Origin: Candidatus Bathyarchaeota archaeon
GTDB lineage: Archaea; Thermoproteota; Bathyarchaeia; Bathyarchaeales; Bathycorpusculaceae
Direction of reading: 5' to 3'
NCBI GenBank assembly: GCA_903901015.1
Contig: CAIUPH010000109.1
Coordinates: forward strand, 1-36,823
DNA: 36,823 bases
Shown here: piece after piece, positions 2 to 27,325 of the stretch
Numbering within the stretch: position 1 is the stretch's first letter
Layout: each line of letters opens with the position of its first letter
Program-made: the position numbers and the translations under genes
The notes under the pieces: generated by a model
Seen by the model: only the letters and a program-made list of their open reading frames with translations
Told to the model about the DNA's origin: nothing
Database searches by the model: none

Positions 2-322
2 GTAACTAAACGGTGCATTGTGCACCAGGTTAAGCCTGAAACATGCCGTGCAGGACCAATCACATTTGACATCAACTTTAAAACCAAAAAAGTCGAGTAT
101 TTCCTGAAGAAATACGAGATTTGCGCTTACGCGGGCGAATTGTTCAAGAACAAAGCCGCCTTCAACGACCACTACGAAGTGGCTAAAAAAGAAATCATGC
201 GTCTCGTCGAAGAGCTCTCGGCGGATGAGTTGCGGGTGCTCCATACAATTGATGAGCCGCAAACCTTCAAGGTCGGCGAAGAAGACTTGCCTGCTTCGGT
301 AGTTAAAAAACTCGGCTTATAA
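2..322 (+). CDS. Hypothetical protein, 5' end cut by the window edge
   Basis: I do not recognise this protein. The reading frame is open to the left edge (codons from base 2), so the gene may begin outside the window; a GTG at base 20 is an internal candidate start. The visible part is about 107 residues, soluble, Lys/Glu-rich, with no membrane segment. It has an amphipathic middle and ends in Lys-Lys-Leu-Gly-Leu. Two Cys are visible but no metal-binding pattern. Its last six bases overlap the 3' end of the leftward SCP2-like gene, so the two genes converge. The high-quality codon use in one frame and the clean stop support a real gene; function is unknown. Confidence 0.6.
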   Translation, partial: VTKRCIVHQVKPETCRAGPITFDINFKTKKVEYFLKKYEICAYAGELFKNKAAFNDHYEVAKKEIMRLVEELSADELRVLHTIDEPQTFKVGEEDLPASVVKKLGL

Positions 323-646
323 GAATCCTGCATCTCTAAATTTGAGCGCTACGGCGATGTCGCCTTTAAAGTGGACTCTTCCGGTGAAGAACGCTTTTTC
401 AGCGCTTAATTTGCCGTTCACCATGTCCATAAAGTCATTTTCGTTCATCTTCAACGTGACAGTGGGTTTTTCATGGGTTCCCTCGGTTACCTGCAGTTTC
501 TGGTCTTTGATGACGACTGTCCAGTTGCCTCCTTCCACTCCCGTAACGTTCAACTGCGCTATAACATCGATGCCGACTGCTTTTTCAGGCTTAAACCTTG
601 CTGGTAGAGTTTTTTCGAAGAAGTCCTGGGGTGTAGTTGTCTCCAT
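317..646 (-). CDS. SCP2 sterol-binding-like domain protein
   Basis: This is a small soluble protein of 109 residues that matches the SCP2 (sterol carrier protein 2) fold along its whole length. It has an N-terminal helix (about residues 5-16), then beta strands with the pattern Trp-Thr-Val-Val-Ile-Lys-Asp. These are followed by Pro-Thr-Val-Thr-Leu-Lys-Met, the helix Asp-Phe-Met-Asp-Met-Val-Asn-Gly-Lys-Leu and the Phe-x-Gly-Arg-Val-x-Phe-Lys-Gly-Asp segment typical of the family. The fold holds lipids or other hydrophobic ligands; the ligand here cannot be told. It lies 63 bp downstream of cofE on the same strand and could be the last gene of that transcript. The ATG start fits the family N-terminus. 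The family call is good; any role in C1 or F420 metabolism is only suggested by position. Confidence 0.8.
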   Translation of the reverse strand: METTTPQDFFEKTLPARFKPEKAVGIDVIAQLNVTGVEGGNWTVVIKDQKLQVTEGTHEKPTVTLKMNENDFMDMVNGKLSAEKAFFTGRVHFKGDIAVALKFRDAGFL

Positions 647-709: not shown

Positions 710-1495
710 CTATCTGAAGAGGTCTCTTTCCTTAGCTCTTGTCAACAGTGTTGCCGCGGCGTTTTCGTCGGTTTTATAGTTGTATCCACGTATGATGGCT
801 GCGGGAATGCCCTCGTTGGCTTGCCCAATCACAAGTTCCGCGGCTGAAGAGAGTTCGTCGGCGATGGCGGTTTGCTTTATTCTCAGAACGTAGCCGAAGA
901 GGTCTTTTTCGCCCCGTCTATCCCGAATGGGCTTGAAACCTGCCACGCCCACAGCCACGTTGATTTCGCCCAACCTAAACGGTCGACCATGTGTATCAGA
1001 AACGATAACCGCCACGTCTGCGCCTGTTAAACGCTTAATTTCTCCTCGAATGTGTTCTGCTGAAGCGCTCGGGTTCTTGGGCAGAGGCACAACATTTCTG
1101 TCTCCCGAAACATTCGAGCGATCTACGCCAGCGTTGGCGCATATTATGCCGCTGACGGTTTCAACTATGATGCTGTTCTGTCCGACGCGCACAATATCCT
1201 TGGTTTCCTGCAAAATCACTTCGACAAGCGCCGGGTCTTTGTTGGTTTTCTGAGCAATCTCCTTCGCCCTCTCAGAAGGCTTCACCTGGTCCAGGTTGAT
1301 TACGTTTCCCTCAGCCTTCGAAACCACCACATGCGTAACCACAACGACGTCTTTTGGCTGGATTGGGTTGCCTTGTTTTTCTGCGGCTTCAACGATAAGC
1401 TTGCCAAGGTTGTCTCCTTTCTTTATCAACGGTAAATTTTCCACAGCGAATACTTGAACGGGATTCACGCTTTTTGCCTCTTCTAAGAGTTGCAT
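710..1495 (-). CDS. cofE: Coenzyme F420-0:L-glutamate ligase
   Basis: CofE adds L-glutamate residues to F420-0 using GTP, completing coenzyme F420, the deazaflavin hydride carrier of these archaea. The 261-residue length is normal for the archaeal single-domain enzyme. The N-terminal region contains Pro-Leu-Ile-Lys-Lys-Gly-Asp (about residues 22-28). It is followed by Val-Val-Thr-His-Val-Val-Val-Ser-Lys-Ala-Glu-Gly, then the Gly-Val-Asp-Arg-Ser-Asn stretch. Next comes Val-Ser-Asp-Thr-His-Gly-Arg-Pro-Phe-Arg, which is the metal/GTP region of the family. The C-terminal Asn-Glu-Gly-Ile-Pro-Ala-Ala-Ile-Ile-Arg-Gly motif is also present. It follows a MetF-like reductase and an FrhB-like F420 protein on the same strand, which fits an F420/C1 gene group. 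Start at ATG 1495. Confidence 0.94.
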   Translation of the reverse strand: MQLLEEAKSVNPVQVFAVENLPLIKKGDNLGKLIVEAAEKQGNPIQPKDVVVVTHVVVSKAEGNVINLDQVKPSERAKEIAQKTNKDPALVEVILQETKDIVRVGQNSIIVETVSGIICANAGVDRSNVSGDRNVVPLPKNPSASAEHIRGEIKRLTGADVAVIVSDTHGRPFRLGEINVAVGVAGFKPIRDRRGEKDLFGYVLRIKQTAIADELSSAAELVIGQANEGIPAAIIRGYNYKTDENAAATLLTRAKERDLFR

Positions 1496-1589: not shown

Positions 1590-2315
1590 TTAGTTTCTGA
1601 ACTTCTGCAGTTTTTGCAGCATCAGTTTGTCGCCTTCAGCGTCGCCTGCGCATGTAGCGATGATGCCGTCGACGAGTCCGACAAGTTTTGCTGCTTTCGC
1701 TTCAACTGTATCCATGGTTGCGGCAACTGGCCAGCCGATCATTTTGACGGTTTCAACGTTCTTGTCTGTTCCGACTAGGAAGTATGCGAACAATGGTTTG
1801 TTGAGTTTCTTGCATTCTGCGGATACTGCTTTGAGTGCTTCGAATGAATCGTCTGTTAGTCTCATGAAGTACACGAAGTCCCATGGCTCGCGTACCCGTT
1901 CGAGTGTTTCTTCGATTGAGCGTCTTGCGGTTAGTAAGCAGCCGAGTTTGAGGTTTTTTGTCTTAACGTTGGTGCGTATGAAGTCTCTTGCTGCTTCTGA
2001 TGAGGGCAGCATCGTTATGGGTTGACCGAACTTTGGGTTGTCTCCCATGGTGACTGCTAAGCCGTCGAGTCCAATGATGTCTGATGCTAAGGCTAAGCCT
2101 CCGACTTCAACTGGGCCTTTGTATTTTAGAATGAAGATCGGGACGACATATTTTTCTGGGTATTTGTATTTGAGTAAGCAACTTACTACTACGCCGCTTG
2201 GAGCTGGGAAACCTGCTGCGCCGTCGGTTACGTTCCATCCGTCGACTAAGTCTTTGAGTTCATCTGCAAGCTTTAAGAATTTACGTGTTGGCACAAATTC
2301 ATTTAGTATTTTCAT
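1590..2315 (-). CDS. MetF-like methylenetetrahydrofolate/methanopterin reductase
   Basis: This 241-residue protein resembles the TIM-barrel methylenetetrahydrofolate reductase (MetF) family, which reduces methylene-H4-pterin to methyl-H4-pterin with FAD. The family-like features are the Val-Thr-Asp-Gly-Ala-Ala-Gly segment near residue 31 and a central Gly-Leu-Asp-Gly-Leu-Ala-Val-Thr-Met-Gly-Asp-Asn-Pro segment (about residues 83-95), comparable to the Gly-Asp-x-Pro of MetF. A later strand carries Gly-Cys-Leu-Leu-Thr. It is shorter than bacterial MetF (about 295) and has no fused zinc or MetV-like domain. It sits 95 bp upstream of cofE and 115 bp downstream of an FrhB-like gene, all leftward. 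The methyl branch of the Wood-Ljungdahl pathway is the obvious context, since the CODH/ACS operon is in the same window. Substrate (folate or methanopterin) and electron donor are inferred, not seen. Confidence 0.72.
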   Translation of the reverse strand: MKILNEFVPTRKFLKLADELKDLVDGWNVTDGAAGFPAPSGVVVSCLLKYKYPEKYVVPIFILKYKGPVEVGGLALASDIIGLDGLAVTMGDNPKFGQPITMLPSSEAARDFIRTNVKTKNLKLGCLLTARRSIEETLERVREPWDFVYFMRLTDDSFEALKAVSAECKKLNKPLFAYFLVGTDKNVETVKMIGWPVAATMDTVEAKAAKLVGLVDGIIATCAGDAEGDKLMLQKLQKFRN

Positions 2316-2430
2316 GGAGATACATCTCAGGTTAAAGGGGTAAGATGTTTGGGTTAAAAAGGCTTTTGCATACGTAAAGTCTGGGTTTATAGTGGAAGGT
2401 TTTTTGGAGCAACATGCATAAAAACAAGGG

Positions 2431-3288
2431 TTATTTAGGCGTGTTTAAGGTGGCTGAGCTTTTTTTGGCGCGTTCCAACTTGAATTTCGATAATCTACAG
2501 ACTTCTGCCTTATCGACCATTGCCTTGGCGACATTGAAGTTCCTCACCAGTTCTCCCCCAACTCTCGACCGCACAACCACAGTCGAAAACCCAGTTTTGC
2601 TGCCAACCGAACCCACAGATACGTCGGCAAACCGCGAAGCAAAATCATCACAATAAAGACAAGCCTTCTCCGCGGCACAGTCAAGGTCTTTTACTTTGCA
2701 GCTGTACTCTTTTCCATCGACAAACGCCGTGAATTTTCCCTGGCGAATCTGCGTTTTCTCAACCTTATCCAAGTTAATGCCCAACCGCGCAGCCACTTGC
2801 TCTTTCAGCTTAGCTTTGTTGAAAGCTTCAAAGCAGAACAAGCCGATGACCGTGATTTCGCATTCGCCCTTGAGGGTTTGCAGGATTTTTCTGGCGGCTT
2901 TGGCTTCGCAGGGCGTGCAAACGACTGCTATTCGTTTTTTTCCTTGGCTGATTAGCTCTTGGAGTTTCTGGGTTACGTTGGCTCTGAGGTATTTGGTTCC
3001 GCTCGCAGCCAAAACCTCGCTTGCGTTCGCAGCCGTCACTGCCTCCGCGCTGTAGCCTTCCCCGCGGCGAACCACAACAGCGGCGTCAAAAATGCCATCT
3101 TCAAAACCCTTGACCAATAGCGCCGTAACCACCCCGCCGTCCTGACCTTCGAAACCGCTTTTCGCAGAAAACATTTCGCTGTAAACGCCAAGGTCAGGGT
3201 CTTTTTTGCCTTCCAGAAACTGCTGTTCGATTTTAGCTTCGTCCTGAGCTTTGAAATTCTGAGTTTTTATCTTTTGGTTCTCGGGCAT
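2431..3288 (-). CDS. FrhB/FdhB-type F420-dependent oxidoreductase beta subunit
   Basis: This 285-residue protein belongs to the coenzyme F420 hydrogenase/dehydrogenase beta-subunit family, which carries FAD and iron-sulfur and exchanges hydride with F420. The recognisable parts are the Gly-Gly-Val-Val-Thr-Ala-Leu-Leu helix near residue 53 and Val-Val-Cys-Thr-Pro-Cys-Glu-Ala-Lys-Ala (about residue 125). These are followed by Gly-Leu-Phe-Cys-Phe-Glu, then a C-terminal cluster region with Cys-x2-Cys followed by Asp-Asp-Phe-Ala-x4-Ala-Asp-Val-Ser-Val-Gly-Ser-Val-Gly-Ser. No hydrogenase or formate dehydrogenase subunits are nearby, and the usual extra N-terminal ferredoxin domain is missing. It is the first gene of a leftward set with the MetF-like gene and cofE, so it may feed F420H2 electrons to the reductase. 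That pairing is inference. Confidence 0.85.
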   Translation of the reverse strand: MPENQKIKTQNFKAQDEAKIEQQFLEGKKDPDLGVYSEMFSAKSGFEGQDGGVVTALLVKGFEDGIFDAAVVVRRGEGYSAEAVTAANASEVLAASGTKYLRANVTQKLQELISQGKKRIAVVCTPCEAKAARKILQTLKGECEITVIGLFCFEAFNKAKLKEQVAARLGINLDKVEKTQIRQGKFTAFVDGKEYSCKVKDLDCAAEKACLYCDDFASRFADVSVGSVGSKTGFSTVVVRSRVGGELVRNFNVAKAMVDKAEVCRLSKFKLERAKKSSATLNTPK

Positions 3289-4080: not shown

Positions 4081-4860
4081 ATGAAGGTTGCTGTTGCAGG
4101 TAAAGGCGGCGTTGGCAAAACTTTGATTGCTGGCGGTTTAGCTCGGGGTTTTGTTGAGCGCGGCTTAAAAACAATCGCGATTGACGCGGATTCTTCTCCT
4201 AACCTTGGTTTAACGTTGGGGTTGTCGGCTGAGGAAACCCGCAAGATAGTGCCCATTACAGAGAATAAGCCATTAGTGGAGTCTAAAACCAGTACTGGTT
4301 TCAACAGTATTTACAATTTGAATTTCACGGTTGACGACATCGTTAGGGATTACTCTATAATCACTCCGTTGGGAGTAAATTTGATTGTTATGGGTACTGT
4401 GCAGGCGATGGAGGCTGGTTGCATGTGCGCCCCAAACGCCGTTATCCGCGCCCTTCTAAGGCACCTTGTCGTCGACCGCGATGAAGCCGTCGTCATGGAT
4501 TTGGAAGCGGGCGTAGAACATATCGGCAGAGGCACCGCAAGACAAGTTGACGCATTACTCATGGTTGCAGACTCCAACCTGAAATCGCTTGAAATCGCCA
4601 AACACATAAACGACCTGGCATCCACGGCCGGCATGAAAAAACTCTACCTCATCGGGAACAGAGTGATGAATGACACCCAAAAAGAAGCAATTCAGAGTTT
4701 CGCAGAAAAAAACGGGCTTAATCTGCTTGCCTTTGTACCCTATGACCAGAAGGTAATTGAAGCTGACATGCTAGGCGTAACGCCGCTTAAGAACAAGGAA
4801 ATCGCGGCTGTTAAAGCGATAGACAATATTTGTGAGCTTTTGCTTAAGAATAGTCAGTAG
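4081..4860 (+). CDS. cooC: CooC-type CO dehydrogenase maturation ATPase
   Basis: A MinD/ParA-family P-loop ATPase of the CooC type, which inserts nickel into the C-cluster of CO dehydrogenase (and acts on ACS in related AcsF proteins). The deviant Walker A motif is Gly-Lys-Gly-Gly-Val-Gly-Lys-Thr at residues 7-14, including the signature Lys8. Switch I is Asp-Ala-Asp-Ser-Ser-Pro-Asn-Leu-Gly (about 35-43). The Cys-Met-Cys pair at 114-116 is the dimer-bridging metal-binding Cys-x-Cys of CooC. The Walker B region reads Val-Val-Met-Asp-Leu-Glu-Ala-Gly-Val-Glu-His. At 259 residues it has normal length. It stands apart from the cdh operon, 4.7 kb upstream, whereas in many methanogens cooC lies between cdhC and cdhD. 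An Ala/Thr-rich weak promoter precedes it. Confidence 0.92.
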   Translation: MKVAVAGKGGVGKTLIAGGLARGFVERGLKTIAIDADSSPNLGLTLGLSAEETRKIVPITENKPLVESKTSTGFNSIYNLNFTVDDIVRDYSIITPLGVNLIVMGTVQAMEAGCMCAPNAVIRALLRHLVVDRDEAVVMDLEAGVEHIGRGTARQVDALLMVADSNLKSLEIAKHINDLASTAGMKKLYLIGNRVMNDTQKEAIQSFAEKNGLNLLAFVPYDQKVIEADMLGVTPLKNKEIAAVKAIDNICELLLKNSQ

Positions 4861-8696: not shown

Positions 8697-9461
8697 ATGA
8701 AAACTCTTGTTACTGTTGGTCGTGGTGGAACAGGGAAATCCAGCTTCACTGCGCTTATGGCTAAATGCTTTGTTGAAAGTAATCAATCGCCCTTGCTGCT
8801 GGTTGATGCTGACCCAGACCAGAACCTAGGCGAAATGCTAGGGATAGACCTTAAAGAAGCAGGAAAATCCACTATAGCTGACCTCTTAGTAAGCACATTT
8901 ATCGAGCAGGGAGGCACCACAGTCGGTGTTCCCCCAAGGGAGCGTATTGAGAGCCGCATTTGGGAAAATGGGCTCTATGAGAGCAAAAACTTTGATTTCC
9001 TCGCGGTCGGCACCAAATGGGTTGAAGGCTGCTACTGCATGCCGAACTCCGCCTTGAAAGCGGCGTTGGAAGGATTGACTAAAAACTACAAGTACGTACT
9101 CGTCGATTCACCAGCAGGCCTCGAAAACCTCAACAGGCGAATAACCTCAGACGTCAACGACATATTCGACATCCTTGACCACTCAAAAAAATCCCAAGAC
9201 CACGTCAGAAGAGCCGTCAAAATAGCCAAGGAAGTTGACATGAAATTTGAAAACTTTTACTTAGTCGGTGGCTACCGTTTTCCAGCAGAACTGGGAAAGC
9301 AAGCTGAAGACGACTTGAAGTTCAAGTACCTTGGAAAAATCGAAGCAGACGAGACGCTTGATGAGTATGTTTTGAACGGAAAATCCCTGCTTGACCTGCC
9401 AAAAACCAACAAAGCCTATCTTTCAGTGCAAAAAATCCTCAAAACCCTTGGGTATCTTTAA
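8697..9461 (+). CDS. Second CooC/MinD-type ATPase, variant P-loop
   Basis: A 254-residue P-loop ATPase clearly related to CooC. The nucleotide site reads Val-Gly-Arg-Gly-Gly-Thr-Gly-Lys-Ser-Ser at residues 7-16. The invariant signature Lys of the deviant Walker A motif is Arg9 here, while the second Lys (Lys14) is kept. The Cys-Tyr-Cys pair at 112-114 is in the same place as the Cys-x-Cys of CooC. Asp-Ala-Asp-Pro-Asp-Gln-Asn-Leu-Gly (37-45) and Val-Leu-Val-Asp-Ser-Pro-Ala-Gly (Walker B) are also present. It lies 136 bp upstream of cdhA, which strongly suggests a role in CODH/ACS metallocentre assembly (CooC or AcsF type). Whether the Arg variant still hydrolyses ATP in the usual way is unknown. 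Confidence 0.85.
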   Translation: MKTLVTVGRGGTGKSSFTALMAKCFVESNQSPLLLVDADPDQNLGEMLGIDLKEAGKSTIADLLVSTFIEQGGTTVGVPPRERIESRIWENGLYESKNFDFLAVGTKWVEGCYCMPNSALKAALEGLTKNYKYVLVDSPAGLENLNRRITSDVNDIFDILDHSKKSQDHVRRAVKIAKEVDMKFENFYLVGGYRFPAELGKQAEDDLKFKYLGKIEADETLDEYVLNGKSLLDLPKTNKAYLSVQKILKTLGYL

Positions 9462-9597: not shown

Positions 9598-11946
9598 TTG
9601 ACAAGTAAAAACGTCCATGTAAAAATAGACGAAATGAAGACCAATAGCGGTCTCATTAAAAATTTTGAATTATCCATCGGCAAAGTTATGAACGACAATT
9701 ATGATGAGCCGATGGGTCCAACCCCAATGCCCTCCTTGACAGCCCTTCGGGATTGGGACATGAAACTTTTAACCAAATACAAGCCCTTCTACATGCCCGA
9801 CTGCGATCTCTGCTGCCTTTGCACTTTTGGCAAATGCGATTTGACCGCTGGGAAACGTGGCGCATGCGGCTTAGACATCGCGACTCAATCTTCTCGTATT
9901 GTGATGTTGGCTTGTGCCATCGGCGCAGCTTGCCACACAGCTCACTCGCGTCACCTTCTACACTCATTAATTGAGAAATACGGTAGAAGGTACCCCTTAG
10001 ACGTCGGCGGATTAAACATTAAAGTTGAAGCTCCAGTCAGCCGCCTCGTCACAGGCATAAAACCTGAAACACTCGGCGACTTAGACGACATTTTAACTTA
10101 CACCGAAGAGCAAATCACCCAAGTTCTCGCAGTAGGACACACAGGACAAGAAGGCAATAACTTAGATTTCGAATCGAAAGCAATGCACGTCGGTATGATT
10201 GACCACGTAGGTATGGAAGTCGGCGACATCGCACAAATCTCTGCATTAGGCTTCCCAAAAGCTGACCCAGAAGCACCGCTCGTAAAACTCGGTATCGCAA
10301 GCGTCGACCGAACAAAACCGGTTATCATGGCAATCGGCCACAACGTTATGCCGTCAGTCGGAATAATCGACTACGCAAAAGACAAAAAAGTTGACGATAA
10401 AATCGAAGTAGTCGGCTTATGCTGCACCGCACACGACATGACAAGGTACTATAACCGCGCAAGAATTGTCGGTCCAATCAGCTGGGAACTTAGATTCGTC
10501 CGCGCAGGATTAGCAGACGTAGTCGTACTCGATGAACAATGCATCCGAACAGACATCTTCGACGAAGCCAGCAAAGTTGACGCCCCCGTAATCGCAGCTT
10601 CAGAAAAGAACTGCATGGGCTTCAAGAACCGCACAAACGATTCAGCAGACGAAATCGTCTCGGACCTCGTCAGCGGTAAAGTCAAAGGCGTTTTGATTCT
10701 TGACCCAGAAAAAGTCGGCGAAGTCGCAGTCCGCGTAGCACAACAAGTTGCTCCAATACGCAAACGAAAGAACGTCCTCCCAAGCATAGAGGAAGTTACA
10801 CAAATCGCAAAAACCTGCACACAATGCAGCAAATGCCAACGCAACTGCCCACAAGACTACGCAATTCCAGCAGCCATGAAAGCAGCAGCACAAGGCGACC
10901 TAACACTACTAACAGACCTTTATGAGACCTGTATTGGATGCGGAAGATGCGAAGAAGCATGCCCACAAAAAATCATGATACACAGCCTCATCATTAAAGC
11001 AGGCGAAAAATCCATGCTCTGCGAAGACAACCTATGCCGCTCAGGCAGAGGCGCAGTCTCAGACGTCGAAATCCGCAACGTCGGCAGCCCAATCGTCCTC
11101 GGAGAAATCCCAGGCATCGTAGCAATCGTCGGCTGCAGCAACTATCCAAAAGGCGGCAAAGACGTCTACGACATAGCCCGAGAATTCGCAAGCAGACGAT
11201 ACATCGTCGCCTTGTCAGGATGCTCAGCAATGTCCGCAGGTAGCTACCGCAACAGCGAAGGCAAAACCCTCTACGAAGAATTCCCAGGCGGATTCGAAGC
11301 AGGAGGAGTCCTCAACGTCGGCTCATGCGTCGCAAACAGCCACATCGCAGGTGCAGCAATCAAAGTAGCAAACATCTTCGCAAAACGCTCACTACGCGGA
11401 AACTATGAGGAAATCGCAGATTACATCCACAACCGCCTTGGCGCAGTCGGCTTAGCTTGGGGTGCATACTCACAGAAAGCCGCATCAATCGGCGCAGGAT
11501 TCTGGCGCCTCGGCGTACCAGTACTTGTCGGTCCACACGGAGTCAAATACCGCAGAATGCTCTTGGGCAGAAAAGAAGACCCATCAAACTGGGAAGTCTT
11601 CGATGCACGCACAGGCGACAAAGTTAACGTCGGACCAGCACCAGAACACCTCTTCAACATGGCTGAAACCAAAGAAGAATGCATGGTTGCAATCGCAAAA
11701 CTCTGCATCAGACCCAACGACACATGGAAAGGACGCAGCATAAAACTAAGCCACTACGTCGACCTCAGCAAACGCTACCTCGGAGTCATGCCAAACGACC
11801 TGCACTTATACGTGAGAACCATGGCTGATGTCCCAATGACCATGAAAGAGGAATTCGCGAAGATCCTTGCAGATAACAACTGGAAAGAAACAATAATTCC
11901 GGACCCAACCCTCCTTCCGAGAATGGTCCGTAAAATGAAGGAATAA
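9598..11946 (+). CDS. cdhA: CODH/ACS complex, CO dehydrogenase alpha subunit
   Basis: CdhA reduces CO2 to CO at the nickel-iron-sulfur C-cluster and passes CO to the beta subunit. The 782-residue length fits the archaeal subunit. Residues 69-90 hold the Cys cluster (Cys69, 72, 73, 75, 80 and 90) for the B and D clusters, followed by the His-rich His113-x2-His116-x2-His119 proton path. Two ferredoxin-like Cys-x2-Cys-x2-Cys-x3-Cys-Pro motifs at about 406-417 and 445-456 bind the E and F clusters special to archaeal CdhA. C-cluster ligands are in Gly-Leu-Cys-Cys-Thr-Ala-His (about 272), Glu-Gln-Cys (about 314), Val-Gly-Cys-Ser (about 510), Ser-Gly-Cys-Ser (about 540) and Gly-Ser-Cys-Val (about 575). 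The start is TTG 9598, with AGAGGT 7 bases before it. First gene of the operon. Confidence 0.97.
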   Translation: MTSKNVHVKIDEMKTNSGLIKNFELSIGKVMNDNYDEPMGPTPMPSLTALRDWDMKLLTKYKPFYMPDCDLCCLCTFGKCDLTAGKRGACGLDIATQSSRIVMLACAIGAACHTAHSRHLLHSLIEKYGRRYPLDVGGLNIKVEAPVSRLVTGIKPETLGDLDDILTYTEEQITQVLAVGHTGQEGNNLDFESKAMHVGMIDHVGMEVGDIAQISALGFPKADPEAPLVKLGIASVDRTKPVIMAIGHNVMPSVGIIDYAKDKKVDDKIEVVGLCCTAHDMTRYYNRARIVGPISWELRFVRAGLADVVVLDEQCIRTDIFDEASKVDAPVIAASEKNCMGFKNRTNDSADEIVSDLVSGKVKGVLILDPEKVGEVAVRVAQQVAPIRKRKNVLPSIEEVTQIAKTCTQCSKCQRNCPQDYAIPAAMKAAAQGDLTLLTDLYETCIGCGRCEEACPQKIMIHSLIIKAGEKSMLCEDNLCRSGRGAVSDVEIRNVGSPIVLGEIPGIVAIVGCSNYPKGGKDVYDIAREFASRRYIVALSGCSAMSAGSYRNSEGKTLYEEFPGGFEAGGVLNVGSCVANSHIAGAAIKVANIFAKRSLRGNYEEIADYIHNRLGAVGLAWGAYSQKAASIGAGFWRLGVPVLVGPHGVKYRRMLLGRKEDPSNWEVFDARTGDKVNVGPAPEHLFNMAETKEECMVAIAKLCIRPNDTWKGRSIKLSHYVDLSKRYLGVMPNDLHLYVRTMADVPMTMKEEFAKILADNNWKETIIPDPTLLPRMVRKMKE

Positions 11947-11961
11947 ACGGAGGAAAAAACA

Positions 11962-12504
11962 ATGTCCTGTGAACCATGGCAATGTGGAGAAATCGCATCA
12001 ACTAAAAAAGCAAACCCCATAACAAAACCCGAGATAGCCGTAGCAATGATCAAAAGAGCCCAACGTCCCCTTCTCATCGTGGGAAGCAACGCAACAGAAC
12101 GGTACATGGAAGGCAAACAACTCATCGAATACGTAATTGAATTCGCTAACGCCTCCAAAGTACCCGTCGTCGCAACAGCCCATATGGTCGGCGAATTCAT
12201 AAAACGCGGGTACCAGCCAGCAGCATTCATGAACGCAATGGAAATCGGACAACGCGTAGTTGACCCCGAATGGATGGGACTCGACGGTAAAGGACACCCA
12301 GACCTTGTTTTGTTGGTTGGGTTACCCTACTACGTTGAATCGTTGATGCTTTCAGGCATGAAGCATTTTGCACCTGACCTAAAAACCATGACTCTTGACA
12401 ATTTATTCCACGTTCACGCAGCATGGTCTTTCCCAAATGCATCCCTTGAAGAGTGGGCTGCAAACTTTAAGGTAATGACCGAGAAATTTAATGGAGGAAA
12501 CTAA
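11962..12504 (+). CDS. cdhB: CODH/ACS complex epsilon subunit
   Basis: CdhB is the small non-catalytic subunit that binds CdhA in the archaeal complex; an electron-transfer role with FAD has been proposed for the family. The 180 residues match the usual length of about 170. The Rossmann-like fold of the family (DHS-like) is visible as Arg-Pro-Leu-Leu-Ile-Val-Gly-Ser-Asn-Ala near residue 34. It continues with Val-Pro-Val-Val-Ala-Thr-Ala-His-Met and Pro-Asp-Leu-Val-Leu-Leu-Val-Gly-Leu-Pro. The start, ATG 11962, has GGAGG 8 bases upstream and is 15 bases after the cdhA stop, so the two are cotranscribed. The early Cys-Glu-Pro-Trp-Gln-Cys is an unusual N-terminal Cys pair. Confidence 0.95.
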   Translation: MSCEPWQCGEIASTKKANPITKPEIAVAMIKRAQRPLLIVGSNATERYMEGKQLIEYVIEFANASKVPVVATAHMVGEFIKRGYQPAAFMNAMEIGQRVVDPEWMGLDGKGHPDLVLLVGLPYYVESLMLSGMKHFAPDLKTMTLDNLFHVHAAWSFPNASLEEWAANFKVMTEKFNGGN

Positions 12505-12506
12505 AA

Positions 12507-13928
12507 ATGTCTATGTTTAAAGATATACCTGTTGAAGTTGGCGTAATCTACGAAGGAGAACGTATCCGAAGAAACGACATGCAAGTTGAACTTGGCGGAC
12601 CCACAGTTAAACAGAAGTTTGAGCTCGCAAAAGTTAAACCCATGAATGAAATCGACGATGGAAAAATCACCATCATCGGTCCAGACCTAAAAGACATGAA
12701 AGAAGGCGGCGCATATCCATTCGGTATCCTCGTTGAAGCTGCAGGCGCAAAACTCGACGCAGGCCTCGAAGGAGTCATTGAAAGACGAATCCACGGCTAC
12801 CTAAACTACATCGAAGGCTTCATGCACCTAAACCAGCGTTATGACCTCTGGATACGCATAGGCAAAAAATCATTCGCCAAAGGCTTAAACAGCTTTGAAC
12901 CAATCGGCAAAGTCCTCTACCGCTTATTCAAGAGTGAACTTCCAATCATCGAGAAAGTACAAATAACCTTCATAACAGACCCCAAAAAACTAGAGGAAAT
13001 GACCCCTGAAGCCATACAGGCCTACGAATCACGCGACTCAAAAGCCAGAGGCCTCAAAGACAGCGAAGTAGACACATTCTACGGCTGCGCCCTGTGCCAA
13101 TCATTCGCTCCAAGCCACGTCTGCATCATCACACCACAAAGATACAGCAACTGCGGCGCAATCAGCTGGTTTGACGGCAAAGCATCAGCAAGCATCGACC
13201 CGAAAGGTCCAGTCTTCGCAATTCCAAGAGGAGAAATGATCAACGAAGAAAAAGGCGAATTCTCTGGCGTTAACGAAGCTGCAAAGAAACGCACCATGGG
13301 CGAAGTTAACCAAGTCTGGCTATACACAGCGTTTGATCACCCACACACTTCATGCGGATGCTTCGAAGCAGTAACCTTCTACATCCCAGAAGTCGACGGA
13401 TTAGGCGTAGTCAACAGAAGCTTCAAAGGCGCAGCAGTAAACGGCTTACCCTTCAGCACCCTCGCAGACTCAGCGGCGGGCGGACGACAAATCGACGGAT
13501 TCCACGGAATGTCCATCGAATACATGCGAAGCAAAAAATTCTTTGCAGCAGACGGTGGATGGAACCGTATTGTCTGGATACCTAAGGAAGTCAAAGAAAA
13601 AGTAAAGGACTTTATCCCAGCAGACGTCGTCGACAAAGTCGCAACTGAAGAAGACGCAAAGAACATTGACGAACTCAAAGCCTTCCTCAAAGCGAAGAAC
13701 CACCCAGTGGTCGCTAAATGGGAAGCAGAAGCAGCACCAGCAGCAGAAACATCAGCCATACAAATTAACGAAGAAGCAGCAGGCACCATGATGCCAGTCG
13801 CAACAATGAGTTCAATGCCAATAATGGCAGGCGGATTCAAAATCATACTCAAAGACGCCAAAATCTACGCTAACAAAGTCATCATCACAACTGTTAAAGA
13901 CAGCAAAGATAACAAAGACAAACGGTGA
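12507..13928 (+). CDS. cdhC: CODH/ACS complex beta subunit, acetyl-CoA synthase
   Basis: CdhC joins CO, a methyl group from the corrinoid protein and coenzyme A into acetyl-CoA at the A-cluster (a [4Fe-4S] joined to two nickels). A-cluster ligands are visible as Cys194-Ala-Leu-Cys197, Cys206, an Asn-Cys-Gly-Ala near 216, and the Ser-Cys283-Gly-Cys285 motif, which binds the distal nickel and bridges the proximal one. The 473-residue length fits archaeal CdhC, which lacks the N-terminal CODH-binding domain of bacterial AcsB. The C-terminal about 70 residues form an Ala/Glu linker, a Met-rich stretch and a final Lys/Asp tail. GGAGG precedes ATG 12507 by 9 bases. The stop overlaps the next gene. 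Confidence 0.97.
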   Translation: MSMFKDIPVEVGVIYEGERIRRNDMQVELGGPTVKQKFELAKVKPMNEIDDGKITIIGPDLKDMKEGGAYPFGILVEAAGAKLDAGLEGVIERRIHGYLNYIEGFMHLNQRYDLWIRIGKKSFAKGLNSFEPIGKVLYRLFKSELPIIEKVQITFITDPKKLEEMTPEAIQAYESRDSKARGLKDSEVDTFYGCALCQSFAPSHVCIITPQRYSNCGAISWFDGKASASIDPKGPVFAIPRGEMINEEKGEFSGVNEAAKKRTMGEVNQVWLYTAFDHPHTSCGCFEAVTFYIPEVDGLGVVNRSFKGAAVNGLPFSTLADSAAGGRQIDGFHGMSIEYMRSKKFFAADGGWNRIVWIPKEVKEKVKDFIPADVVDKVATEEDAKNIDELKAFLKAKNHPVVAKWEAEAAPAAETSAIQINEEAAGTMMPVATMSSMPIMAGGFKIILKDAKIYANKVIITTVKDSKDNKDKR

Positions 13929-15160
13929 TTTCAACGCCCCAAAACGACATCGCCAAAAAAAAGGATAATGAAGGACTACTGCTAAGCGACGAACTGATGG
14001 AAGCCCTCGCAAAATTCCAGACAATCGAACTGGAAGACTTCCAGATGGACGTCAAAGACCTCGAAATCATCTTTGAAGCAGGCGCAGCAGGACAGTTAAT
14101 GCCCAAACTCAAGTTGCCAACACCCATAGCGGGTGGCAAACCACTCAGCATGCTGCAGGTACCTTTCCTGCCACCAATCGAGAAATACCCAAACAAAATC
14201 TCAACCGTTAAACTAGGCGCAACAAAAAGCGAAGGCGGCACACGCGGAAGATCACTCACCATCGGCGGAGAAGTTTCTCCTGCCTTCTACACTTTTGAGA
14301 ACCCAATGCCCCACAAACCAGTAGTCACACTAGACGTTTTCGACATGGAAGTCCCCCTGTCAAAAGCCGTGAAGATGCACGTTAAAGACGTCGTCGGCGA
14401 CCCCGCAGCATGGGCAAAACTCGCAGTCGAAAAATTCGGCGCAGACATGGTTACAATCCACTTAATCAGCGTTGACCCACTACTCAAAGACGCCACACCA
14501 AAAGACGCATGCAAAACCATAGAGAAAGTTATGCAAGCCGTCGATGTACCACTCGTCATAGGCGGATGCGGAGACCCAGTTAAAGACACAGCAGTCTTCG
14601 AAGAAGTATGCGCACAATTCCCAGGCGAACGCTTCCTAATCAGTTCCGTCACACGCGACATGGACGTGGAGAAATGTGCCAAATTCATCAAGAAAGCAGG
14701 CCACGCAATCCTATCGTTCACCCCAATGGACCTTAACCTTGCACGTGAACTCAACAGGCGCCTCTACGACTATGTTGGCAGAGAAGATATCGTTATGGAC
14801 TTAACCACAGCAGCCTTAGGCTACGGCTTAGACTACGCATTCACGAACATGGAACGCGCAAGAATCGGCGGCTTAATGGGCGACATGGAACTCGCACACC
14901 CAATGTCCTCAGGCACAACAAACGCTTGGGCGGCAAGGGAAGCCTGGCTAAAGATGGATGCTCAATGGGAACCACGCGAACTCAGAGGACCACTCTGGGA
15001 AGTAACAACAGCCATAACTCTGTTGCTCGCAGGTGTAGACCTATTCATGATGATGCATCCAGCAGCTGTAAAAACACTAAAAGACGTCACAAACTACTTG
15101 ACCAGCGCCAAAAAAGCAGACCCATCAAAATACGCAAACTGGGTCACGGTAAAAGCTTAA
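13925..15160 (+). CDS. cdhD: CODH/ACS complex delta subunit, corrinoid protein small subunit
   Basis: CdhD is the small subunit of the corrinoid/iron-sulfur protein; with CdhE it carries the methyl group from the pterin to acetyl-CoA synthase. The 411-residue protein has a TIM-barrel core, with Phe-Gly-Ala-Asp-Met-Val-Thr-Ile-His-Leu (about residue 174) and Val-Pro-Leu-Val-Ile-Gly-Gly-Cys-Gly-Asp. The corrinoid-binding-family Met-Asp-Leu-Thr-Thr-Ala-Ala-Leu-Gly-Tyr-Gly-Leu-Asp-Tyr lies at about 292-305. The start is GTG 13925, overlapping the cdhC stop by four bases (GTGA), which implies coupled translation. No cooC lies between cdhC and cdhD, unlike many methanogens. Confidence 0.97.
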   Translation: MISTPQNDIAKKKDNEGLLLSDELMEALAKFQTIELEDFQMDVKDLEIIFEAGAAGQLMPKLKLPTPIAGGKPLSMLQVPFLPPIEKYPNKISTVKLGATKSEGGTRGRSLTIGGEVSPAFYTFENPMPHKPVVTLDVFDMEVPLSKAVKMHVKDVVGDPAAWAKLAVEKFGADMVTIHLISVDPLLKDATPKDACKTIEKVMQAVDVPLVIGGCGDPVKDTAVFEEVCAQFPGERFLISSVTRDMDVEKCAKFIKKAGHAILSFTPMDLNLARELNRRLYDYVGREDIVMDLTTAALGYGLDYAFTNMERARIGGLMGDMELAHPMSSGTTNAWAAREAWLKMDAQWEPRELRGPLWEVTTAITLLLAGVDLFMMMHPAAVKTLKDVTNYLTSAKKADPSKYANWVTVKA

Positions 15161-15166
15161 GGAGAC

Positions 15167-16600
15167 ATGACTGATATGGCAGAAAAGAAAAAAGGCGGAT
15201 TAAAAGAACTTAGCCCCATCACCATTTACAAGAGCTTGCCAAAAATTAACTGCAAAGAATGCGGCGTAGACAACTGCATGGCATTTGCCACAAAAATTGT
15301 CAACCGCGAAATCGAACTGGACATGTGCAAACCGCTCCTGAAACCAGAAAACGCCAAATCATACGCAGTTCTCAAAGACATACTAAAACCAGCAGTTAAA
15401 GAAATCATCGTCGGCGTCGGCGACAAAGCCAAGAAAATCGGCGGCAAACTAGTCATGTACCGCCACGAATTCACATACAAGAACCCGACAGCCATCGCAA
15501 TCGACGTAACTGACGAAATGTCTGAGAGCGAAATTGTCTCACGCGTCCAGAAAACCAGTAACTTTACTTTCGAATACATCGGCAACACCCTCAAACTCGA
15601 CATGATAGCTGTAAGGTGCACTTCTGGCGACGCTGACAAATTCAAGGCAGTCGTCAAGAAAGTTTCAGAAACCACAACCTTACCCATGATACTATGCACT
15701 CTGAGCCCAGCTATAGCTGAAGCAGGTTTAATGGCAGCTCCAAAAGCACGACCACTCCTCTACGCGGCAAACTCAAGCAACTGGAAAGACATGGCGGAAC
15801 TCGCCCTAATGTACAATTGTCCACTGGTTGCTTCCGCACCAAACGACCTTACCACACTGGTTTCCTTAGCAAAGACCCTGATGGCTTACGGCGTAACAGA
15901 CATAGTTCTGGATCCTGGCACTTTCATAAACGACGGATTACCAGACACAATCAACAACTTTACGATGCTGCGAAGAGCCGCAACTAAAGGCGGCGAAGAA
16001 CTCGCAGGCTTACCCCTTCTCGGTGTACCGATGGTTGCTTGGGTAGACAAGGGCGACACAGCAGACGACCTAATCAAATGGCGCGAAGCATACGTAGCTT
16101 CAATGCTCGTAGTCCGATACGCAGATGTCCTAATCATGCACGGCAACGACGGATGGTCCCTACTCCCAACCGCAGTGCTAAGACAAAACATTTACACTGA
16201 CCCACGCAAACCAGTCGCAGTCGCACCTGGCCTGAAAATCTACGGTACCCCCGATGAAAACTCACCAGTGCTCTTCACATCAAACTTCGCCTTAACCTAC
16301 TACACAGTCGCCTCAGACATCGAAAGCAACAAACTCAACGCCTACCTAATCGTCGTCGAAACAGAAGGCTCAGCAATCGACAGCGGAGTCGCAGGACGCA
16401 AACTAACAGCCGAACGAGTAGCAGACGCAATCAAAGCATCAGGCATCGAACAGAAAGTTAAACACCGCAAACTCATCATCCCAGGCAAAGCCTCACGCAT
16501 CAGCGGCGAAATCGAAGAACTCAGCGGCTGGAAAGTCCAAGTTGGACCACGCGACAGCAGCGAGATACCTAAGTATCTCATAGAGAAATGGCAACCATAA
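15167..16600 (+). CDS. cdhE: CODH/ACS complex gamma subunit, corrinoid protein large subunit
   Basis: CdhE binds the [4Fe-4S] cluster and the cobamide of the corrinoid/iron-sulfur protein and receives the methyl group from methyl-H4MPT. The N-terminal cluster motif is Cys-x2-Cys-x4-Cys-x16-Cys (Cys29, 32, 37 and 54). The middle is a TIM barrel with Ile-Ala-Ile-Asp-Val-Thr-Asp, and the last about 110 residues form the cobamide-binding Rossmann domain. Length (477) is normal. Start choice is uncertain: GGAG at 15161-15164 is only 2 bases from ATG 15167 but 11 bases from ATG 15176. The last 83 bases are repeated 850 bp downstream beyond a toxin-antitoxin pair (see the repeat entries). The gene itself is intact. 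Confidence 0.97.
   Translation: MTDMAEKKKGGLKELSPITIYKSLPKINCKECGVDNCMAFATKIVNREIELDMCKPLLKPENAKSYAVLKDILKPAVKEIIVGVGDKAKKIGGKLVMYRHEFTYKNPTAIAIDVTDEMSESEIVSRVQKTSNFTFEYIGNTLKLDMIAVRCTSGDADKFKAVVKKVSETTTLPMILCTLSPAIAEAGLMAAPKARPLLYAANSSNWKDMAELALMYNCPLVASAPNDLTTLVSLAKTLMAYGVTDIVLDPGTFINDGLPDTINNFTMLRRAATKGGEELAGLPLLGVPMVAWVDKGDTADDLIKWREAYVASMLVVRYADVLIMHGNDGWSLLPTAVLRQNIYTDPRKPVAVAPGLKIYGTPDENSPVLFTSNFALTYYTVASDIESNKLNAYLIVVETEGSAIDSGVAGRKLTAERVADAIKASGIEQKVKHRKLIIPGKASRISGEIEELSGWKVQVGPRDSSEIPKYLIEKWQP
16518..16600 (+). repeat. cdhE 3'-end repeat, copy 1 (inside the gene)
   Basis: The final 83 bases of cdhE are repeated at 17368-17450 with 81 identities; the two changes are A to G at 16539/17389 and 16594/17444. 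Weaker similarity goes on for about 15 bases past the stop. The repeat contains a perfect dyad, GAGATAC-CTAA-GTATCTC, at 16562-16579, coding for part of the CdhE tail. Confidence 0.95.
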
Positions 16601-21223: not shown

Positions 21224-22708
21224 ATAGGCTGCGGTATCTTTGGGGCAATAAATTACGATAAACAACCAGTTTTCCCATACGTTTACTGGGGGTTACGTGC
21301 ACAAAATCATCGGGGGCACCAATCACACGGTTTCCTCACGTATGACGATAAAAAATTTTTCACCTACAAGAACCTGGATTTAGTCCCGAAAGTCAAAAGC
21401 AACGCCATCCAAGAATGGTTTGGACGCCTGCCAGGATCCATAGGTATCGGAAACGTAAGGTACACAACCTCAGGCAAATGCGACGACGTATCAATAATCG
21501 ATGGCACACAACCCGTCATTGCCGAAAGCGAAGGCGTAAAAGTTGCGCTCTCATTCAACGGCAACATCGTCAATACACTGCCGCTGAGAAAAGAAATGAA
21601 CCTAAACTTCAATGATTTTATTTACAATTGTGACTCCGACATTGTCTGCCACAAATTTCTTTTAGGACTCAAACAGGGCAAAACATTAGAGTCTGCAGCC
21701 CGAACCGTCATGGAAAGCTTAGATGGAGCATTCTCAGTAACTGGCATAACGGGAGACGGCGAATTCTTCGCTTTCAAAGACCCACATGGAATAAAACCAT
21801 TGTGCGCTGGACATGACCCCAACGCAGCAACCTTCGCGTTTTCATCAGAAACCGTTAGCCTTGACATGAACAGTTTCGTGCGCGACTTCGAATTAAACCC
21901 CGGTGAACTCGTCACCGTTTCATCCCAAGGCTTTAAACGAACCCAAATCATCCAAAAACCCCGCGAAGCCTTCTGTGCCTTCGAATACGCATATTTTGCG
22001 AGACCCGACTCAACTTTCGGCGGCGACAAATACGTTTACGAAATGCGTGAGGAATTCGGAAGAAACATCGTGAGGGAATTCCAGGAAATCGCAGAAGACG
22101 GCGACATCATCATGTCGGTTCCTGAGACAGGCGACGACTCCGCGATGGGGGTTCATGAAGAATCAGGTTTGCGTTGGGAACGCGCTTCAAGACGTCACCG
22201 CTACGTTACTGAACGCGCCTTCATTCTGCTAAATACCGAGCGGTTTTCCACGATTGATAAGAAAATTAACATTTTAGGCTCCAAAGTCGCGGGGAAACGG
22301 GTCATAATAACTGAGGACAGCATCGTTCGCGGCGACACCACAAAAATCATCATAGAGAAGCTGCGTAAGGCAGGCGCTAAAAAAGTCTATGTCTTCGTGA
22401 CTTTTCCGCGTATCATCGGACCATGCTTCTACGGCATCGACATGTCCACGTATGGGCAACTCGTTGGTTCACGCTACGACGCGGAAGGAATTGCTAAAAT
22501 CATCGGAGCAGACAAAGTGTGCTATCAATCCATCGAGGGATTAATTCGCGCCACAGGAAGAAGTGAAGACCAACTTTGTATGGCATGCATAAATGGCAAG
22601 TATCCGACGCCGTGCGCGCAGAAAATGGCTGACGTGATGAAGAAACGTTTCCAAGAGGGCTTTGAAGAGAAAAACAGAATCTACGAATCCGAAGAAGCCC
22701 AGCCGTAA
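21224..22708 (+). CDS. purF: Amidophosphoribosyltransferase, apparent ATA start
   Basis: PurF makes 5-phosphoribosylamine from PRPP and glutamine, the first step of purine synthesis. The N-terminal glutaminase (about residues 3-230) starts Cys-Gly-Ile-Phe-Gly-Ala with the catalytic Cys3. It continues with Trp-Gly-Leu-Arg-Ala-Gln-Asn-His-Arg-Gly and Ser-Phe-Asn-Gly-Asn. The PRPP site is Ile-Thr-Glu-Asp-Ser-Ile-Val-Arg-Gly-Asp-Thr-Thr near 359. Other family motifs are Pro-Cys-Phe-Tyr-Gly-Ile-Asp-Met and a C-terminal Cys-Met-Ala-Cys-x-Asn-Gly-x-Tyr-Pro-Thr. An in-frame stop is at 21218-21220, so translation must start between 21221 and the Cys codon. The only start-like codon there is ATA 21224, 7 bases after GGAAGGGA. 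The next ATG is at 21596 and would remove 124 conserved residues. Confidence 0.92.
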   Translation: MGCGIFGAINYDKQPVFPYVYWGLRAQNHRGHQSHGFLTYDDKKFFTYKNLDLVPKVKSNAIQEWFGRLPGSIGIGNVRYTTSGKCDDVSIIDGTQPVIAESEGVKVALSFNGNIVNTLPLRKEMNLNFNDFIYNCDSDIVCHKFLLGLKQGKTLESAARTVMESLDGAFSVTGITGDGEFFAFKDPHGIKPLCAGHDPNAATFAFSSETVSLDMNSFVRDFELNPGELVTVSSQGFKRTQIIQKPREAFCAFEYAYFARPDSTFGGDKYVYEMREEFGRNIVREFQEIAEDGDIIMSVPETGDDSAMGVHEESGLRWERASRRHRYVTERAFILLNTERFSTIDKKINILGSKVAGKRVIITEDSIVRGDTTKIIIEKLRKAGAKKVYVFVTFPRIIGPCFYGIDMSTYGQLVGSRYDAEGIAKIIGADKVCYQSIEGLIRATGRSEDQLCMACINGKYPTPCAQKMADVMKKRFQEGFEEKNRIYESEEAQP

Positions 22709-22758
22709 TCGCTATTAAGCGTTCCCTCCACTGTTTTAGCAAGTAAGGTGTCCTTTGG

Positions 22759-24171
22759 ATGGAGAAAATCGGTGTACTCTTGGTTTCTTATGGCGCACGG
22801 GAAGTCGCCATGGCAGATGCACTTCTACGAAGCAGAAAATATCAGGTGGAACTCTACGTTGCCGACAAACAATGCAACCCCTTCCACGTGCAACACGCCA
22901 AAAAACACAAGATTATTCCAAGCCTTGACATCCAAGAAATCTGCAAGTTCGCACAGGAAAACAAGGATAACCTTGATTTTGTCATGGTTGGCTCAGAGAA
23001 ACCCATAATCGAAGGCATCCGCGACTTAATCGAGAAACAAACAGGCATCCCAGTTATTTGCCCCACCAAAGAGTATGCCATAGAAGAGAGCAAAGTCGCT
23101 CAGAGGGTGCTCTTTGAGGAGATTGCGCCTGAAGCGAACCCGCGATTCAAAGTTTTCCATCCAGCCGATTACAGGGGAAAAGATGTTCGCGGCGTCGTTT
23201 ACAAGTGGCTTGATGAGCTGGATAACCAAGCCGTTGTTAAACCTGACAAACCCGCGTTGGGCAAGGGCGTCGGCGTTTGGGGAGACCACTTTGCAAACCG
23301 TGAACAATTGTTTGAGCATTTCATGTCTAACTTCCAGTATGGCTCAGTTATTATAGAGGAAAAGATTGATGGTGAAGAATCCAGTTGCATGGGCTTCTGC
23401 GACGGAAAACACTTCATTCCGCTGCCTGATACACGCGACTACAAACGCGCATTCGACGACGACAGGGGTCCGAACACGGGTGGAATGGGTTCTTACAAGG
23501 ACGTGGTTGATTGGCTGCCGTTTTTGACCGCGGCTGAAAGAGAGCAAGAGCTTGCGTTAACCGACAAGGTTTTCAAGGGCTGGAAAGCGAAAATCACCGA
23601 CGATTTCGCCTTACGCGGTGTCCCATTGTACCTTGCCTTCATGCATACGGGCAAAGGAATCAAAATCCTCGAAATCAACAGCCGCCCCGGCGACCCCGAA
23701 ATAATGAATCTGCTACCAATAATCAAAGACGACTTCGTCGATGTCTGCCTAAAGATGGCACATGGCAACCTCACGGGCGTAACAATGGAGAAATCAGCGA
23801 CGGTTTTAACCTACAAGGTTCCATCGGACTACGGTGGCTACGCAGACATGTTCCCCGATAAAGTTGATAAAGCCGTCGTCAACATGCCAGTCGACCTCAC
23901 CAAAGCAGAGGCACTGAGTAAAAAGTACGGTAGCAACATCCGCATCTACCCGGGCTCCATGGAATTGCGAGGCGGCAAAAACTACTCGCTCAAATCCCGC
24001 GCCATAGGCATCCTTGGAATCGGCGGCAGCATTGAAGAAGCCCGTCAAATCAGCCAGGAAGGCGCAAGAGCAATCACTGGCGGCGCATTGTGGAACCGAA
24101 CAGACGTCGCCTCAGAACAGCACATAGCCAAAAGCGTACGGCACATGGAGAAGTTGAGGGGCAGGGCTTGA
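22759..24171 (+). CDS. purD: Phosphoribosylamine-glycine ligase
   Basis: PurD joins glycine to phosphoribosylamine with ATP to give GAR, the second purine step. It has an N-terminal Rossmann part starting Lys-Ile-Gly-Val-Leu-Leu-Val-Ser-Tyr-Gly-Ala-Arg-Glu. This is followed by an ATP-grasp domain with Val-Lys-Pro-Asp-Lys-Pro-Ala-Leu-Gly-Lys-Gly-Val-Gly-Val, Ile-Glu-Glu-Lys-Ile-Asp-Gly-Glu-Glu and Gly-Pro-Asn-Thr-Gly-Gly-Met-Gly. The metal site Glu-Ile-Asn-Ser-Arg-Pro-Gly-Asp-Pro-Glu is present. The start of the protein has Ser-Tyr instead of the usual Gly-Gly of the nucleotide loop, so it is a divergent PurD. At 470 residues it is longer than bacterial PurD (about 430). AAGGTG is 8 bases before ATG 22759. 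The stop overlaps the next gene (TTGA). Confidence 0.9.
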   Translation: MEKIGVLLVSYGAREVAMADALLRSRKYQVELYVADKQCNPFHVQHAKKHKIIPSLDIQEICKFAQENKDNLDFVMVGSEKPIIEGIRDLIEKQTGIPVICPTKEYAIEESKVAQRVLFEEIAPEANPRFKVFHPADYRGKDVRGVVYKWLDELDNQAVVKPDKPALGKGVGVWGDHFANREQLFEHFMSNFQYGSVIIEEKIDGEESSCMGFCDGKHFIPLPDTRDYKRAFDDDRGPNTGGMGSYKDVVDWLPFLTAAEREQELALTDKVFKGWKAKITDDFALRGVPLYLAFMHTGKGIKILEINSRPGDPEIMNLLPIIKDDFVDVCLKMAHGNLTGVTMEKSATVLTYKVPSDYGGYADMFPDKVDKAVVNMPVDLTKAEALSKKYGSNIRIYPGSMELRGGKNYSLKSRAIGILGIGGSIEEARQISQEGARAITGGALWNRTDVASEQHIAKSVRHMEKLRGRA

Positions 24172-25250
24172 CGCGCGTCTTTGTCTCCGACTGCGAAGGA
24201 CCCATATCTAAGAACGATAACGCCTTCGAGTTGTCAGAGAACTTTATTCCAAACGGCGACAAACTGTTCACGAACATAAGTCTCTATGACGATGTGTTGG
24301 CGGATGTTCTGCATAAACCCGATTACTCTGCGGGCAGCACGTTGAAGCTGATTTTGCCTTTCTTCAAAGCGTACGGCGTCACCGATGCTCAGATGGAGAA
24401 TTTTTCAGCAAAAAACATCGTTCTAATCGCCAACAGCCAAGCCAGCCTCCACCATATCCAAGCCATAGCCGACTCCTTCATCGTCAGCACCAGCTACGAA
24501 CACTACATCAAAGCGCTATGCAAAGCCATCAAATTCCCATACAAAAACACGTACTGCACCAAAGTCAGTCTCGATCAATGCGCCGCTACCCCGCAGGAAA
24601 AAGACCGCTTAAAAAAAATAGCTCAAGAAATCGCGCAGATACACCCGATTAAAATTCCTAAAGCCACAAAAACCATGGAGGACTTTGCGCCTATCGACCA
24701 AGCGGTTATTGGGCGTTTGGATGAGATTTTCTGGACTGAAATTCCCAAGATGTTCATTGGCAGAAGCCTCGTTGATGTGGTGACGGTTGGCGGGGAACAG
24801 AAAGCTGAAGCCATCCGCGACATCGCCAAACGCACAGGCACCAAACTTTGCGATGTGATGTACGTGGGCGACAGCATAACTGATGTGGAAGCCTTCAAAC
24901 TGGTGCGTGACAGCGGCGGCTTAACCGTCTCCTTCAACGGCAACAGCTACGCCGTGAAGAATGCTGAAGTGGCTGTCCAATCGGAAAGTAACCTTGTAAC
25001 CGCCGCGATAGCCGACTTGTTCTGCAAGTTAGGCACAGAAAAAACCCTCAAAGCGCTGGGGTCATGGAGTTTTGACGCCCTGGCAAAGAATAATGTTGAC
25101 GCGGCGCTACTCAAACAGCTTTTGGCTGTGTACCCTGATGATTTGCCTAAAGTTCAAATAGTAACAGCCGAAATTATGGAATCACTCATAAATGAGAGCA
25201 GTGCGTTTAGGAAGAAGGTTCGTGGAGTAGCCATCGGGAGACTTGGATAA
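24168..25250 (+). CDS. Archaeal HAD-superfamily protein, EhaR/COG4030 type
   Basis: A 360-residue protein of the haloacid dehalogenase superfamily, resembling the archaeal group COG4030 that is often called energy-converting hydrogenase subunit R. Motif I is Val-Ser-Asp8-Cys-Glu10-Gly-Pro, a variant of the Asp-x-Asp nucleophile pair with Glu in place of the second Asp. Motif IV is Tyr-Val-Gly-Asp-Ser-Ile-Thr-Asp near 234-241. The middle cap domain and C-terminal helices are specific to the group. The start is TTG 24168, whose last two bases form the purD stop (TTGA overlap), so the proteins are coupled in translation. No hydrogenase genes are nearby; the purine and C1 context suggests a phosphatase on a metabolite of those routes. 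That role is inferred. Confidence 0.8.
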   Translation: MTRVFVSDCEGPISKNDNAFELSENFIPNGDKLFTNISLYDDVLADVLHKPDYSAGSTLKLILPFFKAYGVTDAQMENFSAKNIVLIANSQASLHHIQAIADSFIVSTSYEHYIKALCKAIKFPYKNTYCTKVSLDQCAATPQEKDRLKKIAQEIAQIHPIKIPKATKTMEDFAPIDQAVIGRLDEIFWTEIPKMFIGRSLVDVVTVGGEQKAEAIRDIAKRTGTKLCDVMYVGDSITDVEAFKLVRDSGGLTVSFNGNSYAVKNAEVAVQSESNLVTAAIADLFCKLGTEKTLKALGSWSFDALAKNNVDAALLKQLLAVYPDDLPKVQIVTAEIMESLINESSAFRKKVRGVAIGRLG

Positions 25251-27070: not shown

Positions 27071-27120
27071 ACTCCGATTGCTTTGGCACTGACTGACTGG
27101 CTGTCGCAGGACTCGGTCTG

Positions 27121-27306: not shown

Positions 27307-27325
27307 ATAAAAAGAGAGAAGGGGT

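Follow-up and report, generated by a model that had tools for sequence, protein, structure and literature searches.

A compact MTHFR-superfamily protein encoded beside cofE as a probable replacement for Mer in Bathyarchaeia

The conversion of methylene-H4MPT to methyl-H4MPT is classically carried out by Mer, an F420-dependent enzyme of the luciferase family. Which enzyme performs this step in a Candidatus Bathyarchaeota archaeon that encodes the CODH/ACS and is without a recognisable Mer is the question raised by the stretch of DNA analysed here (the window; 36,823 nucleotides). The original prediction, made from this sequence, had proposed that the products of an FrhB-like and a MetF-like gene lying by cofE could form an F420H2-dependent methylene reductase, which would stand in for Mer in the methyl branch and so supply the CODH/ACS of the same window. 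The ORFs, their order and their coordinates could all be confirmed, as could the CODH/ACS operon, to which ftr is added (Table 1). On the minus strand the order is frhB, the MetF-like gene (here called X, as is its product), cofE and the SCP2 gene, with intergenic gaps of 115, 94 and 63 bp, and the frhB and X ORFs are both intact and begin with ATG (285 and 241 aa, respectively). The CODH/ACS is encoded 7 kb from X. The genome to which the window belongs encodes Mch, and a profile search found no Mer over the cut-off; PF02219 found no MetF there either. The weak Mer match in this genome (L067, 74 bits) was rejected as Mer, being a generic luciferase-like oxidoreductase. A small SCP2-domain protein is encoded after cofE in nearly all relatives, both those with X and those with Mer, and ftr is surrounded by ORFs resembling purine-biosynthesis genes (21596-30522), next to an ORF (24090-25250) that presumably resembles EhaR.

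Table 1. Coordinates of the features of the window that bear on the methyl branch
Feature	Position	Strand	Remarks
X, compact MTHFR-superfamily TIM-barrel protein, 241 aa	1590-2315	-	Proposed methylene-tetrahydromethanopterin reductase in place of Mer
FrhB, short FrhB-type F420 oxidoreductase subunit, no ferredoxin domain	2431-3288	-	Conserved Cys set; immediately precedes X
CofE, F420-0:gamma-glutamyl ligase	710-1495	-	TIGR01916 over equivalog cut-off
SCP2-domain protein, final gene of the conserved block	317-646	-	Domain match
CooC/AcsF-like ATPase (CODH/ACS maturation)	4081-4860	+	Divergent from X in most relatives
Second CooC-like ATPase	8697-9461	+	Directly before cdhA
CODH/ACS operon cdhA-cdhB-cdhC-cdhD-cdhE	9598-16600	+	cdhB assigned by position
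Ftr, formylmethanofuran:H4MPT formyltransferase	25251-26159	+	Methyl-branch enzyme in the window

X is a real conserved protein, among the more conserved ones of the region. It is present in 57 of 201 sampled Bathyarchaeia genomes (the window's own included), with 60-92% identity in the other 56, and the X of another genome, from a separate collection, is 95% identical. Orthologues with 46-58% identity turned up in a phylum-wide profile search in families f28, f32, f35 and f57, as did distant homologues of 230-270 aa in many other Thermoproteota. As a single sequence X has no match in Pfam, NCBIfam or PDB sequence searches, so that annotation pipelines overlook it; it falls below the PF02219 gathering cut-off, and single-sequence comparison gave no significant match to any MTHFR. 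Since the homology appears only through the family, calling X a MetF-type TIM barrel was not obvious, and the call proved right. A profile built from the Bathyarchaeia X proteins plus added crenarchaeal homologues matched the Bathyarchaeia MetF profile with 97.3% probability (E 2e-11; profile-profile comparison with hhalign), placing E6 on the Glu of GELEP, NVTD on NITD and MGD on TGD, while the control profiles (Mer, MtrH, CdhD, CdhE, MetE, Mtd, Ftr and a luciferase-like protein) all scored 0.1-1.4%. The Bathyarchaeia-only alignment, being too uniform, gave a weak hit (16%), and a bacterial-type MetF (L149) alone had no match to the X profile. One distant homologue of X (L120) is itself over the PF02219 MTHFR cut-off.

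The AF2 model of X (pLDDT 95) has a beta/alpha barrel pattern, and its best PDB folds in Foldseek were the MTHFRs 8uy1 and 5ume (TM 0.69-0.71), with the mycobacterial flavin-independent Mfr among the top folds and TrpA behind MTHFR, nearly equal by E-value. TrpA was the top fold only for the first AF2 model (pLDDT 73), which the second superseded. By this model X is an MTHFR-type TIM barrel, its predicted (beta-alpha)8 fold being closest to MTHFR. E6 (in NEFVP) is invariant across 30 diverse X homologues and D92 (in MGD) is kept in at least 90% of the 30 when aligned; they align with the catalytic Glu and the pterin-site Asp of MTHFR, respectively. The MTHFR carboxamide position, which we take to be Gln183 in E. 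coli, is seemingly not conserved in X (Met/Arg in the profile alignment), and the loop that follows strand 5 in MetF is shorter in X. MTHFR, Mfr and Mer share a strand-1 glutamate as catalytic acid, together with an acidic residue at a second pterin-binding position (PMC11094777). As in those enzymes, protonation by E6 would turn the substrate into the 5-iminium cation, and D92 would contact the pterin.

Among known reductases, X shares with MetF/MTHFR (PF02219), in particular the archaeal MetFV type, the fold, the catalytic Glu, the GD motif and the profile homology, but it is some 50-60 residues shorter; unlike for archaeal MetFV, we noticed no MetV next to it in the loci that were read. With Mer (TIGR03555) it has in common the reaction proposed here, the position beside cofE in sister genomes and the strand-1 EFVP motif, whereas the sequences are unrelated (hhalign 0.2%). 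Mfr, an enzyme of H4F and NADH, resembles X in its fold, its short N-terminus and its catalytic Glu near residue 9, but not in sequence.

We scored Mer by TIGR03555 and MetF by PF02219 in the 201 Bathyarchaeia genomes, mostly draft MAGs. Mer over the cut-off was found in 38 and MetF in 82, and neither occurred together with X in any genome, although Mer and MetF are found together in 14. The Fisher p value for the exclusivity of X (7e-25) ignores phylogeny, and weight was therefore given to swaps within genera: g1, g3 and g23 each hold X genomes as well as Mer or MetF genomes, with one kind per such genome. In 12 X genomes outside Bathyarchaeia, MetF over the cut-off was likewise absent. Mch is present in 54 of the 57 X genomes, which therefore have the H4MPT branch, and counting X raises the Mch-bearing Bathyarchaeia with a known reductase from 69 to 123 of 152. 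The remaining 29 carry none of the three, so a further reductase type may exist; perhaps these are that, or perhaps incomplete bins.

The strongest evidence that X, Mer and MetF do the same job is that these unrelated or remotely related reductases exchange at one spot. In all four Mer genomes examined (G186, G139, G154 and G137), cofE is no more than about 2 kb from mer, which occupies the place held by X elsewhere, and in G186 and G137 there are CODH/ACS genes nearby. The archaeal MetF, which fills the same metabolic slot, is found at the same locus in genome G160, with metF directly before cofE. In the cofE tree the Mer genomes branch among those with X, and at least three changes are required by supported branches; this count is a lower bound, because a mer genome (L144) and a metF genome (L176) were wrongly labelled as X. 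That X takes the place of Mer in the methyl branch, as originally predicted, is thus supported both by the strict exclusivity and by the presence of mer at this locus in sister genomes.

Pathway genes also accompany X in relatives. In family f57 the order is cdhC-cdhD-cdhE-RACo-CooC-X, and in family f2 it is NfnA-NfnB-X-Mtd. At loci L109 and L111 the X ORF overlaps that of an NAD(P)-type methylene-H4MPT dehydrogenase (mtdB, Mpt_N; L109:7133-8867 and L111:6893-8612). At L074:1854-4987 and L075:1840-4927, X is directly downstream of NfnA-NfnB-like genes, which in L075 are preceded by an FlpD-like protein; it is possible that NfnAB-X of these two loci is a bifurcating methylene-H4MPT reductase. 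Locus L073 has fwdD (assigned by eye), Mtd, Ftr, X and CooC in that order, and family f32 has X-FTHFS-MtrH. The distant crenarchaeal homologues adjoin MetE (L126) or corrinoid proteins and MtrH (L119, L128), and an ADP-forming acetyl-CoA synthetase adjoins X in many Bathyarchaeia. Genes for adjacent steps of the pterin side, together with acetate formation at the other end, are consistent with X as the putative methylene-to-methyl reductase. L109 and L111 each combine two consecutive methyl-branch steps in one operon, and no cofE was detectable in their host genomes.

The exclusivity, the exchange beside cofE, the pathway-gene neighbours and the MetF homology and fold, all of them observed, make it very probable that X is a methylene-H4MPT reductase replacing Mer; from them we infer activity, substrate and direction. 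X would take methylene-H4MPT to methyl-H4MPT in the branch feeding the CODH/ACS, and we put at roughly 84% the probability that it is a compact, unrecognised member of the MTHFR superfamily that interconverts the two and so completes this branch.

The original prediction had also assigned the electron input, to an FrhB without a hydrogenase partner. FrhA and FrhG are indeed absent next to this FrhB within the window. It matches PF04432 (E 3e-32) and PF04422 (E 1e-14), the two Pfam domains of the FrhB/FpoF/Fsr family (which includes the CODH-bound FrhB of Ca. Ethanoperedens), and keeps the FeS cysteines conserved among relatives; it differs from that family in being the smallest form, with no ferredoxin domain and with neither a hydrogenase nor a CODH gene in its operon. 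In the 18 sampled genomes that have this short FrhB (14 in g1, 4 in g3), X follows it directly on the same strand without exception, and in genus g7 and in f8 X is flanked by an FrhB of another type, one that has a ferredoxin domain. The predicted pairing therefore holds in one direction, FrhB implying X in 18 of 18, but X without FrhB is common: 9 of the 23 X genomes of the window's genus have no adjacent FrhB, and in 8 of these no homologue was found at E<=1e-15 anywhere in the genome. NfnAB stands in place of FrhB in f2, and no CofE was found in seven X genomes of f57 and f28 (96-99% complete), whose X proteins (54-58% identical) can therefore probably not use F420. A general requirement of X for FrhB as its electron-input subunit is not supported, since genomes of the same genus do without it and X orthologues occur in genomes without cofE. 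In our view X is the fixed component and the electron module the variable one, with FrhB a lineage-specific module at most; elsewhere NfnAB-like modules, or NAD(P)H directly, appear to take this role. In the window's lineage we see an even chance that the adjacent FrhB is the electron-transfer partner of X, in which case it would pass electrons to or from F420. On balance, we lean slightly towards X representing a third class of archaeal methylene-H4MPT reductase, fed by interchangeable modules (FrhB for F420, an NfnAB type, or NAD(P)H alone).

A partner-free X is a serious possibility, to which we give somewhat less than even odds: hydride would pass directly from F420H2 or NAD(P)H in a ternary complex like those of Mer and Mfr, and FrhB would just regenerate F420H2. 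The persistence of X without FrhB, the rank of Mfr among the folds, the Mer-like EFVP motif and the shortened loop after strand 5 all agree with this, but the nearest profile relatives of X are the MetFV-type archaeal MetF proteins, which are thought to be flavin-dependent, and X is recurrently paired with flavin or FeS modules. More doubtful, though worth keeping as a tentative proposal, is an obligatory F420H2-dependent complex in which FrhB serves as the electron-input domain of a MetF unable to accept electrons itself. It would account for the fixed position of the short FrhB upstream of X, for the ferredoxin-bearing FrhB beside X in g7 and f8, for the adjoining cofE and for the retained FrhB cysteines; the nine same-genus genomes without it (eight with no FrhB homologue found), the NfnAB neighbours in f2 and the seven genomes without cofE argue against it. 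It is unlikely that FrhB serves the CODH/ACS instead, as an F420-reducing CODH of the kind in Ca. Ethanoperedens, and has nothing to do with X. The CODH/ACS is nearby and FrhB has the CODH-bound 8riu_B as its top match in PDB, but the margin over Fsr and FrhB is just a few bits, frhB runs in the same direction as X and against cdh, and the short form never occurs away from X in our sample. A role for X as a pterin-binding methyltransferase (methyl-H4MPT to corrinoid), or as some other CODH/ACS-linked TIM-barrel enzyme, is very improbable. It would suit the barrel and the linkage to CODH/ACS and MtrH, but X has no profile similarity to MtrH, and such a role leaves unexplained why X excludes Mer and MetF and exchanges with them at one locus.

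Bathyarchaeia are among the most abundant archaea of sediments, and X as a methylene-H4MPT reductase would change predictions of acetogenesis and autotrophy for them. It would close the methyl branch in lineages that had been declared incapable of CO2 reduction, and also in other Thermoproteota without detectable cofE. The former include the termite-gut group TB1, now Bathycorpusculum, in which X is present. TB1 was reported to be without Mer, no Bathy-6 member was found to have a methylene-THF reductase, and the loss of CO2 reduction to methyl in TB1, that is, of the methylene-to-methyl step, was inferred (PMC7886697). Six TB1 MAGs of that study (WQSY, WQYG, WREZ, WRNB, WRGM and WRJX) carry X, as do two TB2 MAGs, WQVG (locus L040) and WRCX (locus L049), the division into TB1 (phylotypes 1-7) and TB2 (8-9) being our reading of PMC7886697. 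Mer was reported in TB2 (PMC7886697); with TIGR03555 at E<=1e-20 we found none in G072 and G145, apparently the WQVG and WRCX genomes judging by their X loci. Elsewhere, mer was described as missing in two families and an unknown alternative complex was suggested (PMC8407382). We found no description of X in the literature searched.

Two further features were seen in the Mer genomes. A small ORF (109-131 aa, no Pfam match) lies directly upstream of mer in three of them (L185:10266-10661, L186:10441-10779 and L187:8656-8985) and was not noticed beside X. In G186 (L185:2742-6644), an FrhB fused behind [2Fe-2S] and ferredoxin domains (520 aa) adjoins two ORFs that by eye resemble homologues of NuoF and NuoE; this is possibly an NAD(P)H:F420 oxidoreductase encoded beside the CODH/ACS of a Mer-bearing sister genome.
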